Assembly (NCBI RefSeq): GCF_900086655.1
Contig: NZ_LT575476.1
Location: forward strand, 649,664-713,663
Direction of reading: 5' to 3'
DNA length: 64,000 bases
Source of the DNA: Paenibacillus tuaregi
GTDB lineage: Bacteria > Bacillota > Bacilli > Paenibacillales > Paenibacillaceae
How positions within the stretch are numbered: the first letter of the stretch is position 1; the number at the start of each line of letters is the position of its first letter. A program made the translations under genes and the position numbers. The notes under the pieces were generated by a model. It saw only the letters and a program-made list of their open reading frames with translations, searched no databases and had not been told where the DNA came from. Positions 11,672-19,858 of this stretch are shown here, one piece after another.

Positions 11672-11965
11672 ATGCGCGCAGATGTGCAAAATTTATTTAT
11701 CCGTATCCACATGCTCCATAATGCCAGTCTGGAGGATATTAATATGGGGGATACGCTGCTGATCCTGGAGAAACACGGCTATAAGGTCGCCGAGCGAGAG
11801 GTGAAGCAGGAGTTGGAGCGTCTGACGGAGGAGAACTTTCTGACCCCGCATGATGATCAATACTCCATTACCGGTGCCGGACTTGAGGAACTTAAGGAGA
11901 TCAAGGGCGTGCTGAAGGAGCTCTGCAGTGAAGTTCTCCAGCCTGAGGCAGAGCAATCAAGATAA
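11672..11965 (+). CDS. Small hypothetical protein, winged-helix-like
   Basis: 97 residues with ATG preceded by GAAGGAGAGG. Predicted mostly helical with a final hairpin: a helix around DTLLILEKHGYKV, another around EREVKQELERLTEENFL, then PHDDQYSITGAGLEELKEIKGVLKEL, which resembles a winged-helix wing followed by a helix. I do not recognise a named family. It has no signal or membrane segment. It is followed by a long terminator and lies just upstream of the quorum-sensing receptor, but on a separate transcript. Confidence 0.7.
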   Translation: MRADVQNLFIRIHMLHNASLEDINMGDTLLILEKHGYKVAEREVKQELERLTEENFLTPHDDQYSITGAGLEELKEIKGVLKELCSEVLQPEAEQSR

Positions 11966-12018
11966 GTTGGAGCCGAGGAGCCGAAGGGCATCAGAAAATT
12001 TTTTCGATCTGAAAAAGA

Positions 12019-12091
12019 CATCCCGTTTATTCTAAACCGGAAGGATTTCCTAATTTATCCGGTGAATAACTAGTAGGGATGGCTTTTTTTT
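12019..12091 (+). terminator. Long imperfect hairpin terminator
   Basis: Nested pairs CATCCC/GGGATG, GTTTATTC/GAATAAC and CCGG/CCGG, then a run of eight T. It separates the small hypothetical gene from the receptor gene. Confidence 0.7.
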
Positions 12092-12107
12092 GTTTTTAAT
12101 TAACCAA

Positions 12108-12136
12108 TTGTCAAATATATGTAATTTTGCTATTAT
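12108..12136 (+). promoter_or_regulatory. Sigma-A promoter of the quorum-sensing receptor gene
   Basis: -35 TTGTCA (12108-12113), a 17-base spacer and -10 TATTAT (12131-12136), 29 bases before the start codon. It lacks the palindrome found in the propeptide promoter. Confidence 0.65.
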
Positions 12137-12164
12137 TATCAATACAAATCACAGGAGGTGTGGA

Positions 12165-13559
12165 ATGGAGTCTATGAATGCAATTCGTTCAGAGATCAAG
12201 GATCATCTGCTCAGCTCCGGTTATACACTCACCTCATTTGGACATCTTTCCGGAATGAACAGGGGGAGTCTAAGTGCGATTCTGCACGGGTCTCCCCCTA
12301 AGCCTATAGCTATAAGACAGTTGGATATCATCACAGAAACGCTGGGATACCCGGAAGGGTGGTTCTATCATTTATATTTGGATGAATGCTTTGCGGGCGG
12401 CAAGGTATCACGACGGCGGCTTGAGCCTTACCTGCTCCGATGTGCAGAGCTTGGTAAACGGGACTGTATCGATGCCGCGATCTCCAGGCTGCTTGAGACC
12501 GCTAAGCCCCTTGCTCTGTTATTCGAAATAGGTGAGAAGCTGTACCATCAAGGCAAGATTAAAGAATCCGCCTTATTCTATGAAGCTGTTGCGGAAATGG
12601 AGAAGGACAGTCACTCCGAGCGTCTTGCCATCAGTCATTACAGATTGTTCATGGCTCATCAGGGACCTGATGCGGAACAGAACTGGAGAGCGGTTATCCG
12701 GTTCGAGCCCTTTCGCAGGAGACTTCCGGAGAACTATCAGCTTGATGCGATTCTGAAGCTTGCGAACGTTTGCTTTACCCTCCATAAGTGGAGGGAGGTC
12801 GAGAAGTATGCCGATGAACTCAGAGCTCTGGCACAAGCTGTATATCGCGAACAGTTACAAAGGAAGGTCCGTGAGAGGGAGCCGCAGGTGCTTGGCACCG
12901 AGCGCCATTTGGTTGTCTACTACGGACAAGGTTATCTCTTGAAGACGATTGCTCTTCAGAAGCAGGAACTGTATGACAAGGCAAAGAAATACGTCACCGG
13001 TTACGCCGATTTAAGCTGGTTCGAGGATCTGAATGAAATAGGCTGGATGGAAGTGAAGAAGTTCAGGTTATGGGCACAGGCCAATGCCTATACACTCGAA
13101 ATGCTGACAGGCAATATTTCCATTCTACCTGAGTACTGCAGCTTCCTGCTCGAACACCCGGGCGAGATTCTTCCAGGCATGCTGACCATTATTGAGTCAG
13201 CTAACAAATATGGCTTCTATGCAGATGATATTATCGAGCAGATCTTTCAGGTCATCTATGATTTCAATGAACAAGATCCGATTGAAGTGGACAGGCATTT
13301 CTCACTCCGTTACGAGCTCGCGGTATACCAGTTCAGGAAGAATCAATACGCCGAAGGCATATCTAGCACCTTATTCGCACTAAGACTGGCCCTTATCCTG
13401 AACAATGACTGGGACGTCATTCAGTGTATCACCCTGTTTGAAGCATATAGGGCGTACGCTTCCGAGCAGCATAAAAGTGAGTATCAATATATGATGGAAG
13501 AATTAAGAAACAAGGAGAAGAACAATCCCTTTAGCACCCGCCGTTTCAGGATTGTATAA
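12165..13559 (+). CDS. AimR/AloR-like peptide-responsive regulator (RRNPP superfamily)
   Basis: 464 residues from ATG 12165 (AGGAGGTG five bases upstream; the frame extends to 12090 without a site). The N-terminus is an XRE-like HTH (about 5-60: LLSSGYTLTSFGHLSGMNRGSLSAILHGSPPKPIAIRQLDIITETLG). The rest is all-helical TPR-like repeat sequence (for example FEIGEKLYHQGKIKESALFYEAVAEME, LDAILKLANVCFTLHKWREVEKYADEL). This is the layout of cytosolic receptors that bind re-imported oligopeptides. A 39-codon propeptide gene follows 157 bases downstream, the standard receptor-peptide order. It fits the AloR receptors described in Paenibacillus, though subfamily assignment is by layout only. It probably binds the palindrome in the propeptide promoter. 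Confidence 0.85.
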   Translation: MESMNAIRSEIKDHLLSSGYTLTSFGHLSGMNRGSLSAILHGSPPKPIAIRQLDIITETLGYPEGWFYHLYLDECFAGGKVSRRRLEPYLLRCAELGKRDCIDAAISRLLETAKPLALLFEIGEKLYHQGKIKESALFYEAVAEMEKDSHSERLAISHYRLFMAHQGPDAEQNWRAVIRFEPFRRRLPENYQLDAILKLANVCFTLHKWREVEKYADELRALAQAVYREQLQRKVREREPQVLGTERHLVVYYGQGYLLKTIALQKQELYDKAKKYVTGYADLSWFEDLNEIGWMEVKKFRLWAQANAYTLEMLTGNISILPEYCSFLLEHPGEILPGMLTIIESANKYGFYADDIIEQIFQVIYDFNEQDPIEVDRHFSLRYELAVYQFRKNQYAEGISSTLFALRLALILNNDWDVIQCITLFEAYRAYASEQHKSEYQYMMEELRNKEKNNPFSTRRFRIV

Positions 13560-13577
13560 GGATCCTATGAAATTTGC

Positions 13578-13606
13578 TTTACAAAAGTAGAGTCTACTTG
13601 TATGAT
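13578..13606 (+). promoter_or_regulatory. Promoter of the propeptide gene with embedded palindromic operator
   Basis: -35 TTTACA (13578-13583), 17-base spacer, -10 TATGAT (13601-13606). The spacer contains a perfect 15-base palindrome, AAGTAGA-G-TCTACTT (13585-13599). An operator between the two boxes is a classic repressor position; the receptor encoded just upstream is the obvious candidate ligand-controlled regulator. Confidence 0.75.
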
Positions 13607-13716
13607 GATCCTATCAGGGAATATTATCCATTTTAGTCAACCCTGATCTTCCATCTTTGAGAGCTAGTCATCATTTGCTAACTTAATAAGGTGTTAACCG
13701 GGGGAGGTGAGTCAGG

Positions 13717-13836
13717 ATGAAGAAGATTATTCTGTCATTGATCTTGGCCGTTGGGGTATTTAGTGGCGTTGCTGCTACTGAACAAGTTTCCCAAGGTGGC
13801 ATTCAGGCTTTGCACAACCATGGTGTTGGCGGATAG
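13717..13836 (+). CDS. Quorum-sensing propeptide (AloP/Phr-like)
   Basis: 39-codon ORF with a strong GGGGAGGTG site. The N-terminus is a signal peptide (MKKIILSLILAVGVFSGVAA) followed by a short polar pro-region and the C-terminal sequence ALHNHGVGG. Phr/Aim/Alo precursors are secreted, trimmed to a C-terminal penta- to octapeptide and re-imported by Opp. The likely mature signal is NHGVGG or HNHGVGG, close in form to the SHGRGG peptide I recall for a P. polymyxa Alo system. A dedicated promoter and terminator make it a separate small transcript. No biochemical proof of the cleavage site can be read from DNA. Confidence 0.82.
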   Translation: MKKIILSLILAVGVFSGVAATEQVSQGGIQALHNHGVGG

Positions 13837-13852
13837 ACCTTACATGTCTAGA

Positions 13853-13882
13853 GAGCACTCGAGAGAGTGCTCTTTTATTTTT
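13853..13882 (+). terminator. Terminator of the propeptide gene
   Basis: Stem GAGCACTC/GAGTGCTC with a four-base loop, followed by TTTTATTTTT, 16 bases after the stop codon. Confidence 0.85.
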
Positions 13883-13912
13883 GTATATGTTTGGATACAA
13901 TTATGTGATAGT

Positions 13913-13941
13913 CTGACATTTACTTGAAGTTAAAATATACC
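13913..13941 (+). promoter_or_regulatory. Probable promoter of the Spo0E-like gene
   Basis: -35 CTGACA (13913-13918), 17-base spacer, -10 TATACC (13936-13941), about 98 bases before the ATG. Confidence 0.45.
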
Positions 13942-14038
13942 GACAAAGAATGCTAATTTTTTTGAATTTTGTAAAATATGTTTTTTTGGCATCATGGGGT
14001 ATGATAGTTTTGTAATGATAAGAGAGAAGGTGAGAATT

Positions 14039-14260
14039 ATGGCATCCAAAGCTTATCAACCGCATGAGCAGCATAACAAAGGAAGCGGCAGGGTAAACGA
14101 GGAACTTCTCGCGTTGATCGAGAATCTGAGATATGAGTTGGCGGCCATGGCTGGAGACCGGGACTTTACCAGCGCGAATGTGCTGGAACTTAGCCAAAGA
14201 TTGGACAAGTATATCGTTATGGCCCAGCACCAAATGATCCGTGGATATGCTGTAGAGTGA
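14039..14260 (+). CDS. Spo0E-like aspartyl-phosphate phosphatase
   Basis: 73 residues from ATG 14039 (GAAGGTGAG upstream; the open frame starts at 13994 without a site). It is a short helical hairpin protein carrying the Spo0E signature near the C-terminus (ELSQRLDKYIVMAQ, matching the SxxLD consensus). Spo0E family proteins dephosphorylate Spo0A~P and delay sporulation. It lies directly downstream of the quorum-sensing cassette but has its own promoter. The position suggests, without proving, a link between peptide signalling and sporulation timing. Confidence 0.75.
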   Translation: MASKAYQPHEQHNKGSGRVNEELLALIENLRYELAAMAGDRDFTSANVLELSQRLDKYIVMAQHQMIRGYAVE

Positions 14261-17985: not shown

Positions 17986-18061
17986 GTTTTGTAACTGGTA
18001 AGCTGCTGGAATGCTAAGCTATACTACATGGAGAGCTGCCGGTGTATTGGAGGAGATGGAT

Positions 18062-19858
18062 GTGTACAATCTTGTGAAAAAGTGGTTTTGGTTTGATTGG
18101 ATGGTCTTTTTACTGCGGATCATTTTCTTCGTATCAATATTAATTACAGCATGCTCGCAATATGGGGCTGCTCCGATTCCCTTATGGGTAACTTTATTAT
18201 GGGGAATACTGGCTTTTTCGGCTCCCTGGTTCTGTCTGCAGCTGCACTATATTTATTATCTAATCGCAGAAATCGTGATCACCGGAAGCTTGTGTTTGTT
18301 TCTGGCGTACCTGTTTCCGGCGTCCTACTCGATCTTTCTGGCCCCCGCGTTCATGATTGCCAGCAACAGCGCACACAAGTCATACCGCTGGAGCGGCCCG
18401 GTGGTTATTGTTCTGTTTCCGTTTTTATTGAATGAAATTGCCCATGCAGACGGTGTCCTGGCCCTTTCGATAACTTTTGGACTGGCATATACACTGGGCT
18501 TTGCCTTTCAGCTGTTTGTCGTGAATCACCGGCAGAGTGGGATTATCCGGGATCAATATGCTGTTCTGGAGCAGTACACTTCCCAGATGGAGCATGTGAC
18601 CCAGCTTGAAGAGAGGAACCGTATGTCCAAGGATTTGCACGACACGATGGGACATGCCTTCACGTCCATACTGATGGGGCTTGAAGCTTTGCGGCCGGAT
18701 GTGCAGTCTGAGGAAGGCAGGAAAAGAATGGACTCCCTGCTGGGGCTTACCCGAAAAAGTCTTGATGAAGTCCGGCAATATTTGCACCAGGCAGGAAGCT
18801 CGGGAGACAACCTGACTCTAGTGCAATCACTGGAGAAGCTGGCCGGTGATTTTCAACGCTTCTCGAAAGCGGAGGTCCGGTTTAAAAGTTATGGTGAAGA
18901 TATCACACTGCCCAAGCAGATGGGAATGACATTATACCGCTGTCTTCAGGAATCCTTGACGAATGCGGTGCGGCATGGGCAGGCAAGCCGTATTGAGGTG
19001 AGCCTTCATGTGGAGGACAGACAGATCCGGCTGGAAGTGAAAGATAATGGGCTTGGAGCCGACGATCTGCAGGAAGGCTTCGGACTTCAGGCTATGCGGG
19101 AGAGAGTAACCAACCTTCAGGGCCAGCTTTATATCTATTCCAATCAGGGTGAGGGCACTACAGTTACGTGTAATCTGCCAAGGGATTCAGGCTCCATGGA
19201 GGAGTTGATCCGGATCGTAATTGTCGACGATCAGACGTATATTCAGGACAGTCTAAAGATGATCTTGGGAAGAGAAAGGGACTTCGTCATCGAAGGAGCT
19301 GCTGGGGACGGTCAATCCGCGCTTGAGCTTTGCGGGCAGGTAATGCCTGATTTGGTTCTAATGGACCTGAATATGCCAGGAATGGATGGAGCGGAGGCTA
19401 CCCGGAGGATTAAGACGGCTTGGCCACATATGAAGGTGTTGATTCTAACGACCTTTGATGAAGCCGGCAAAGCTATAGAGGCTCTGCGCGGGGGAGCAGA
19501 TGGTTATATGCTGAAGTCTGTACAGCCGCTGGAACTGTTTGAAACGATCCGTCTTGTATACCGTGGGAGTAAGATTATCGCCCCCGATATTACCAATGAG
19601 TTGATTGACCGGTACCGGTCACAGCCCGATATCCCGGAACAGCCTGGTAAGGAGGGGCAGGGTGGCGAATACGGGCTGACAGACCGGGAGATGGAGATTC
19701 TGGAGTGTTTGGCTAAAGGCCTGCGCTACAAGTCGATTGCTGCCAAGCTTTATTTGTCCGATGGAACTGTGCGGAATTATGCGTCCACCATCTATGCCAA
19801 GCTTGGGGTACGCAACCGGGAAGAAGCGGTACAGAAGGCGTTCAAGTTAGATGGCTAG
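18062..19858 (+). CDS. Fused histidine kinase - NarL/LuxR-type response regulator
   Basis: 598 residues in a single frame. Five to six membrane segments (residues about 12-155) form the sensor part. A HisKA_3 dimerisation domain has phospho-acceptor H193 in KDLHDTMGHAF, followed by a HATPase (ESLTNAVRHG, DNGLGAD). After GSMEELIR come a receiver with phospho-acceptor D435 (LMDLNMPGMDG) and a C-terminal LuxR HTH (LTDREMEILECLAKGLRYKSIAAKLYLSDGTVRNY). Normally these are two overlapping genes; here no stop separates them. GTG 18062 has GGAGG eight bases upstream; ATG 18011 or 18056 are alternatives. An internal ATG at the junction could allow a separate regulator. A DNA-binding output on a membrane protein is unusual. 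Confidence 0.85.
   Translation: MYNLVKKWFWFDWMVFLLRIIFFVSILITACSQYGAAPIPLWVTLLWGILAFSAPWFCLQLHYIYYLIAEIVITGSLCLFLAYLFPASYSIFLAPAFMIASNSAHKSYRWSGPVVIVLFPFLLNEIAHADGVLALSITFGLAYTLGFAFQLFVVNHRQSGIIRDQYAVLEQYTSQMEHVTQLEERNRMSKDLHDTMGHAFTSILMGLEALRPDVQSEEGRKRMDSLLGLTRKSLDEVRQYLHQAGSSGDNLTLVQSLEKLAGDFQRFSKAEVRFKSYGEDITLPKQMGMTLYRCLQESLTNAVRHGQASRIEVSLHVEDRQIRLEVKDNGLGADDLQEGFGLQAMRERVTNLQGQLYIYSNQGEGTTVTCNLPRDSGSMEELIRIVIVDDQTYIQDSLKMILGRERDFVIEGAAGDGQSALELCGQVMPDLVLMDLNMPGMDGAEATRRIKTAWPHMKVLILTTFDEAGKAIEALRGGADGYMLKSVQPLELFETIRLVYRGSKIIAPDITNELIDRYRSQPDIPEQPGKEGQGGEYGLTDREMEILECLAKGLRYKSIAAKLYLSDGTVRNYASTIYAKLGVRNREEAVQKAFKLDG

Follow-up and report, generated by a model that had tools for sequence, protein, structure and literature searches.

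A predicted AloR/AloP-type peptide signalling locus with an adjoining Spo0E-like gene in Paenibacillus tuaregi

The sequence analyzed here (the window) is a stretch of 64,000 nucleotides from the genome of Paenibacillus tuaregi, in which three neighbouring genes of the + strand are of main interest. An aloR-like receptor gene of 464 codons starts with an ATG at 12165 after AGGAGGTG and ends with a stop codon at 13559; an HTH domain (about residues 1-60) and a TPR-like helical solenoid are predicted for its product. It is followed by an aloP-like propeptide gene of 39 codons (ATG at 13717, stop ending at 13836), which stands after GGGGGAGGTGAG and has the translation MKKIILSLILAVGVFSGVAATEQVSQGGIQALHNHGVGG, and by a gene for a Spo0E-like aspartyl-phosphatase of 73 aa (14039 to 14260). 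The first two ORFs had been reported in a preliminary description of this DNA and are confirmed. A promoter-like site of aloR, TTGTCA-17-TATTAT, was found by a promoter scan at 12108 to 12136; it is largely retained in P. zeisoli and in the species of genome G030 when the loci are compared, and the alignment gives no counterpart in P. shirakamiensis. Further upstream, between 11990 and 12090, a CCGGTGAATAA segment is retained in all four species, and in the window it lies within a possible long hairpin (CATCCC...GGGATG) followed by a T-run; this region has no Rfam match above the gathering score. The idea that the DNA between the genes carries a known RNA element was rejected: Rfam gave no match in the whole window at gathering scores, and three matches in a permissive scan of 11950 to 14060, all under those scores.

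The assignment of HTH and TPR domains to the receptor is based on the domain matches of its relatives and on a structure model. The window protein itself has no Pfam match above cut-off, HTH and TPR domains included (E 0.01), no NCBIfam family match, the AimR model NF038310 included, and no convincing match in PHROGs, and phmmer against PDB gave two insignificant TPR matches only. For 27 Alo relatives chosen by hand as representatives of the clades of a receptor tree (alignment A4), Pfam HTH_3 was matched by 10, HTH_26 by 9 and TPR_2 by 5, and in NCBIfam the phage HTH family BcepMu_gp16 was matched by 7 and the AimR model by 2 (best E 5e-5). The family-model search proposed in the preliminary description thus succeeds for two relatives but not for the window protein, and the HTH-plus-TPR description holds through the relatives and the model, though not through a Pfam match of the protein itself. 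A profile of the 27 sequences gave 26 matches to solved structures at E up to 10, among which no RRNPP receptor is named; the best (E 0.001) are HTH controller proteins, and the others are HTH, TPR and unrelated proteins. The receptor thus could not be tied by sequence alone to any RRNPP receptor of solved structure, neither phmmer nor this profile having returned one.

An AF2 model of the receptor from 16 sequences has a mean pLDDT of 87.2 and replaces an earlier model from three sequences (69.6). In VIA-align, the 16-sequence model matches the RRNPP receptors NprR-NprX (Z 16.7), RapI (16.2), RapH (15.2), AimR-DNA (13.6, rmsd 17.5) and PlcR-PapR7-DNA (13.3), but TPR proteins of other kinds, such as LGN (up to 18.2), score as high or higher and are interspersed among them. 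No RRNPP receptor was among the best 50 rows of Foldseek for this model; with the three-sequence model Foldseek gave nothing at E 0.001 or better, and AimR was at ranks 28, 38 and 47. The model supports a TPR fold, and speaks for fold and not for function. The predicted architecture, an HTH part with a TPR-like peptide-binding part, is that of RRNPP(A) receptors.

Among 19 matches (fragments included) in genome G102, the best match of the window receptor is AloR13, with 44% (44.2%) identity over query residues 1-457 of 464, and the adjacent AloR14 is the second. We take G102 to be P. polymyxa, because the AloP13 pro-peptide printed in PMC7425212 has a 100% identical match in this one genome; AloR13 is encoded by the receptor gene next to that match. 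RRNPP_Detector regards a receptor cluster as known when its identity to a reference, AloR13 for example, reaches 30% and the mutual coverage 80% (PMC10075063), and the window receptor exceeds both values against AloR13. Its sequence relation to AloR13 makes the locus a member of the AloR/AloP systems, which belong to the RRNPP class, and it has been filed as Alo, not AimR; the earlier placement of the receptor within the RRNPP families is borne out.

In a tree of 70 receptors, which excludes L026 (internal stop), duplicate loci and all receptors no longer than 400 aa, the window protein belongs to a clade of four species (support 100/99), and its identities to the other members are 81% (P. zeisoli), 79% (G030) and 62% (P. 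shirakamiensis). This clade is sister to 26 receptors from another Paenibacillaceae genus, the 30 together again having support of 100/99. AloR13 falls in a separate clade; the row L068 is a partial copy of AloR13, and AloR14 is absent from the tree. By sequence the window receptor is a member of the Alo family and not necessarily an orthologue of Alo13. In a search of the family, at least one Alo receptor was found at E 1e-10 in 237 of 394 genomes; orthologues are present in P. zeisoli and P. shirakamiensis, and matches were obtained in genomes of the same genus and of the same family, so that occurrence in Paenibacillaceae is as expected for Alo. AloR-like matches confined to the TPR part (about residues 190-450) were observed at L081, L082 and L083 of G102 and L108-L110 of G027; short signal-like ORFs come after the matches at L081 and L082, and these loci are possibly Alo receptors that lack the HTH or are differently headed.

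Genes common to the loci of the window, P. zeisoli and G030 are the mutS2-like, GAF and 97-aa genes upstream and the hydrolase and GNAT genes downstream; P. shirakamiensis has the same neighbours except the mutS2-like gene, which was not found within the stretch compared. Since the same neighbours recur across species, the locus seems to have been part of the chromosome for a long time. AloR relatives, 32-36% identical, are also present in 17 loci (L086-L102) of predicted viral contigs (IMG/VR), of which alignment A6 contains 13 (L087, L097, L099 and L100 omitted). An aloP-like ORF was seen in 13 of the 17 predicted-viral loci, and L086, L091 and L100 extend to the contig end. A prophage origin of the window locus was rejected in view of this low identity and of the conserved chromosomal neighbours.

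The propeptide gene is short, and its signal-peptide-like N-terminus was judged with a simple composition filter rather than a dedicated predictor. In the 64 kb, 20 short ORFs on both strands passed the filter for a signal-peptide-like N-terminus and RBS, and of the 20 only the aloP-like ORF has an HGxGG-like C-terminus. Against the NCBIfam PhrK model, the signal region scored weakly (19.2 bits vs a cut-off of 35). The length is within the 32-50 aa of P. polymyxa Alo propeptides (PMC7425212), and a short ORF with a predicted hydrophobic N-terminal signal just downstream of aloR is what is expected of an Alo system. The two closest species, P. zeisoli and G030, carry an orthologous ORF with a signal-like N-terminus, the two ending in YMLNHGVGG and LLNHGVGG. 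A chance ORF was rejected, on the basis of these orthologues with identical C-termini and the 1-in-20 filter control.

The codons 13816 to 13833 specify the predicted mature hexapeptide NHGVGG, and all six residues are the same in the three species, compared with 3 of 14 in the pro-region (one-sided Fisher 0.002, from three aloP sequences only); the six-residue boundary had been fixed by the preliminary description ahead of this test. Two of the six codons differ silently across the three species. Because the last six residues are identical and the pro-region is not, NHGVGG is supported as the mature signal. Conservation ends immediately before N34, and the longer form HNHGVGG gets no support because the residue before N is L in both relatives. 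The C-terminal peptide, whose lack of conservation would have spoken against the preliminary description, is conserved in two of the three orthologous loci; in the third, of P. shirakamiensis, no aloP gene was found. Other Alo loci end in SHGRGG, ENGVGG, EHGVGY, EHGVEF or EHGAGT, and propeptides with HG or NG near the C-terminus follow many related receptors; judged from these sequences, NHGVGG fits a common style of Alo signals. The P. polymyxa peptide SHGRGG had been named correctly in the preliminary description (PMC7425212), and its view that an HGxGG end points to the Alo group agrees with the relation of the receptor to AloR13, whose peptide is SHGRGG. The peptide was also thought to be possibly new, and NHGVGG was found in none of the open-licence PMC papers searched.

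The position of aloP is unusual. In 61 of 69 tabulated loci aloP was found, and in 57 of the 61 the two genes overlap, the start of aloP lying 8 to 50 nt inside the end of aloR; in this table, which leaves out the window, duplicates, L067, L068 and L080-L085, many loci are close relatives and not independent, the aloP of L076 was missed by the filter, and L077 is counted at +115 although another ORF exists at -38. In the window and in G030 aloP starts 157 nt after the end of aloR, and in P. zeisoli 232 nt after. A promoter-like site, TTTACA-17-TATGAT, lies at 13578 to 13606, and an intrinsic-terminator-like hairpin with a T-run follows aloP at 13850 to 13875, as the preliminary description had proposed in giving the propeptide its own promoter and terminator. 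Promoter matches in the window are no more than expected by chance (5 vs 5.9 in shuffles), and the site is credited because P. zeisoli and G030 have the same pair, TTTACA-17/18-TATNAT, in the corresponding position, the spacer being 18 nt in these two. Six terminators were found in the window vs 2.9 expected in shuffles; the scan also calls the one after aloP in P. zeisoli and does not call it in G030, where the alignment shows the stem. The aloP leader contains a block of 15 bases, AGGGAATATTATCCA (13616 to 13630), that is identical in the three species (alignment A2). Between aloR and aloP, P. zeisoli has a terminator-like hairpin (6420-6437 of L031); scanning gave no such hairpin between these genes in the window, nor on that strand in G030. 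By eye, no match to a sigma-H promoter consensus was seen upstream of aloP. Taken from these sequence features, aloP looks like a separate transcription unit and not like part of an aloR-aloP operon.

The product of the third gene matches Pfam PF09388 with 43 bits, above the gathering score of 23. In the ORF list this gene begins at an earlier ATG (13994), and the start at 14039 was adopted because it follows a GAAGGTGAG and is common to P. zeisoli and G030. Each of the four species in the clade has a Spo0E-like gene after the aloR locus, and by analogy with Alo13 it is probably the target of AloR. Upstream of it lies a conserved non-coding block (13966 to 14006), which shares 38, 39 and, for P. 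shirakamiensis, 30 of its 41 positions with the three relatives, compared with 43, 43 and 28% of the four-fold silent sites of aloR; the block was chosen by eye after alignment as the best-conserved stretch, by which the contrast is inflated. In windows of 25 columns from the block to the start codon, 14 to 20 columns are identical in the four species, compared with 1 to 3 in the aloP-side half. Since the block is far more conserved than silent sites, it probably holds an AloR-dependent spo0E promoter. Within it an inverted repeat, ATCAT-N5-ATGAT (13991-14005), is found in the four species with unchanged arms and a variable spacer, and its right arm overlaps the TATGAT -10 of spo0E; by eye no good -35 was seen for this gene. 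In P. zeisoli a run of 17 C (6832-6848 of L031), absent from its three relatives, was observed slightly upstream of the block, and may reflect either an error of assembly or a tract prone to slippage. The reading of the locus as a quorum-sensing cassette is upheld, but the preliminary description overlooked the Spo0E-like likely target, and aloP looks like a unit of its own, outside any aloR-aloP operon.

The best-studied counterpart is Alo13 of P. polymyxa (AloR13-AloP13-Spo0E; Voichek et al. 2020; PMC7425212). Besides the related receptor, both loci have a C-terminal HGxGG hexapeptide and, as the next gene on the same strand, one for a Spo0E-like protein. They differ in that aloP13 begins within aloR13, 50 nt from its end, whereas aloP here is detached and has its own promoter-like site, in that aloR14 adjoins aloR13 whereas no second AloR was found in the present genome, and in the separate clades of the receptors. 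Moreover, the window Spo0E gave no tblastn match (E up to 10) with the P. polymyxa alo13 loci, and receptor and Spo0E may therefore have been paired more than once. A Spo0E-like gene within 1300 nt was found by pattern, which may miss divergent ones, in none of the 26 sister loci and none of the 15 loci L005-L019.

In P. polymyxa, the promoter of the spo0E-like gene beside aloR13 is activated by AloR13 and silenced by SHGRGG, which takes effect from 10 nM upwards (PMC7425212). Carrying this direction of regulation over by analogy, we consider it probable that the locus is an Alo-type RRNPP-class module, aloR-aloP-spo0E, in which peptide-free AloR activates spo0E and NHGVGG stops the activation. 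AloP would be exported by its N-terminal signal sequence and cut extracellularly to give NHGVGG, which an oligopeptide permease would re-import; the genome has one Spo0A and eight SBP_bac_5 (oligopeptide-binding-type) matches. At low density, AloR without peptide would activate the promoter of the adjoining spo0E-like gene, whose product would dephosphorylate Spo0A~P and hold sporulation back; at high density, NHGVGG would bind the TPR domain of AloR, spo0E activation would end and Spo0A~P could rise.

The main rival to this explanation keeps the same module with the opposite sign: AloR would be a repressor at an operator overlapping the spo0E -10, and the peptide would relieve or strengthen repression. 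The inverted repeat overlaps the -10 in all four species, an arrangement compatible with either sign of control by AloR; the 12 other regions upstream of spo0E that were tested, that of P. polymyxa alo13 included, all lack the repeat, and therefore the Alo13 result need not apply here. We nevertheless regard a repressor as rather unlikely, as activation was observed for Alo13, the sole relative of this gene order studied by experiment (PMC7425212), and by eye the spo0E promoter lacks a good -35, which suits an activator-dependent promoter.

AloR and AloP might also be a working pair with their main targets elsewhere in the genome, the Spo0E-like gene being controlled by something else. SHGRGG lowered other P. 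polymyxa genes too, 10 in all (PMC7425212), and loci of related clades have no downstream Spo0E by pattern; the Spo0E-like gene is, however, linked to the receptor in the four species together with its conserved upstream block, even where aloP is missing, and this makes the idea improbable in our judgement. That the 39-codon ORF is a chance ORF or another small secreted protein beside an orphan receptor we hold to be very improbable: the ORF is missing beside the receptor of P. shirakamiensis, and some P. polymyxa Alo receptors are without a peptide gene (PMC7425212), but the orthologous signal-like ORFs of two species share an identical NHGVGG with silent codon changes, and HG- or NG-bearing propeptides follow many related receptors.

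Among other systems, the sister Alo clade (26 loci; EHGVGY, EHGVEF) has the closest receptors outside the four species (50-56% identical), but its aloP, where found, overlaps the end of aloR and no Spo0E is found downstream by pattern. Phr genes of Bacillus often have their own promoter, and Rap is not known to have a DNA-binding domain. The Rap-Phr systems resemble the present locus in the TPR fold and in a short secreted peptide acting on Spo0A (PMC7425212); they differ in that Rap itself acts as a phosphatase, whereas here the phosphatase is a separate gene presumably under transcriptional control. The arbitrium system AimR-AimP of Bacillus phages, with which PMC7425212 draws a parallel, is similar in that the peptide switches off the adjacent target gene of the receptor, and AimR structures are among the structural matches of the window receptor. 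Unlike AimR, the window receptor has no AimR-model match, its locus is chromosomal with conserved neighbours, and the adjacent gene is Spo0E-like, not AimX.

The kind of system is already known, and this locus is useful mainly as a clean model for the role of Alo signalling. P. polymyxa has 16 Alo systems with some cross-regulation (PMC7425212). By the 27-row profile, one Alo receptor each was found in the present genome (G000), G030, G039 and G021, and four in G027, three of which are TPR part only; the present genome and its two nearest relatives thus have one each, compared with the 19 matches (fragments included) in G102. In a search of the genus, 4 of 40 genomes have one Alo receptor and the others 3 to 16. 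The completeness of G000 is 95.67%, and a missed Alo copy is possible. In such a species, if it is growable and manipulable, one deletion and one synthetic peptide could probe a link between Alo signalling and sporulation without Alo paralogues, with the caveat that this genome has four Spo0E-like matches above cut-off, three of them besides the window gene. Two further Spo0E-like genes were observed on contig C3 of G000 (34.7 kb; L119), where the profile search found no AloR.

A more specific reading, which we put forward tentatively as somewhat less than probable, is a one-signal switch: this species and its two nearest relatives would be left with a single Alo system, the pheromone gene of which would have become an independent transcription unit. 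The main task of the system would be to time the braking of Spo0A by the Spo0E-like protein, by way of the operator that overlaps the spo0E -10, and P. shirakamiensis would have lost the signal, its receptor now being a fixed regulator of spo0E. If this is true, signal production is set separately from the receptor level. In P. shirakamiensis aloR, spo0E and most of the conserved block persist although aloP is absent, and hence the NHGVGG peptide is dispensable there; this species is a natural comparison. Neither an aloP unit detached from aloR, nor the conserved block at spo0E, nor a species with a single Alo receptor was found described in the literature searched, namely open-licence PMC papers with the covered portions of PMC7425212, PMC10075063 and PMC9765709.

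Histidine kinases and their response regulators are usually encoded by two genes; at 18011 to 19858, a single ORF of 615 aa combines a histidine kinase (HisKA_3, HATPase_c) with a LuxR-type response regulator.
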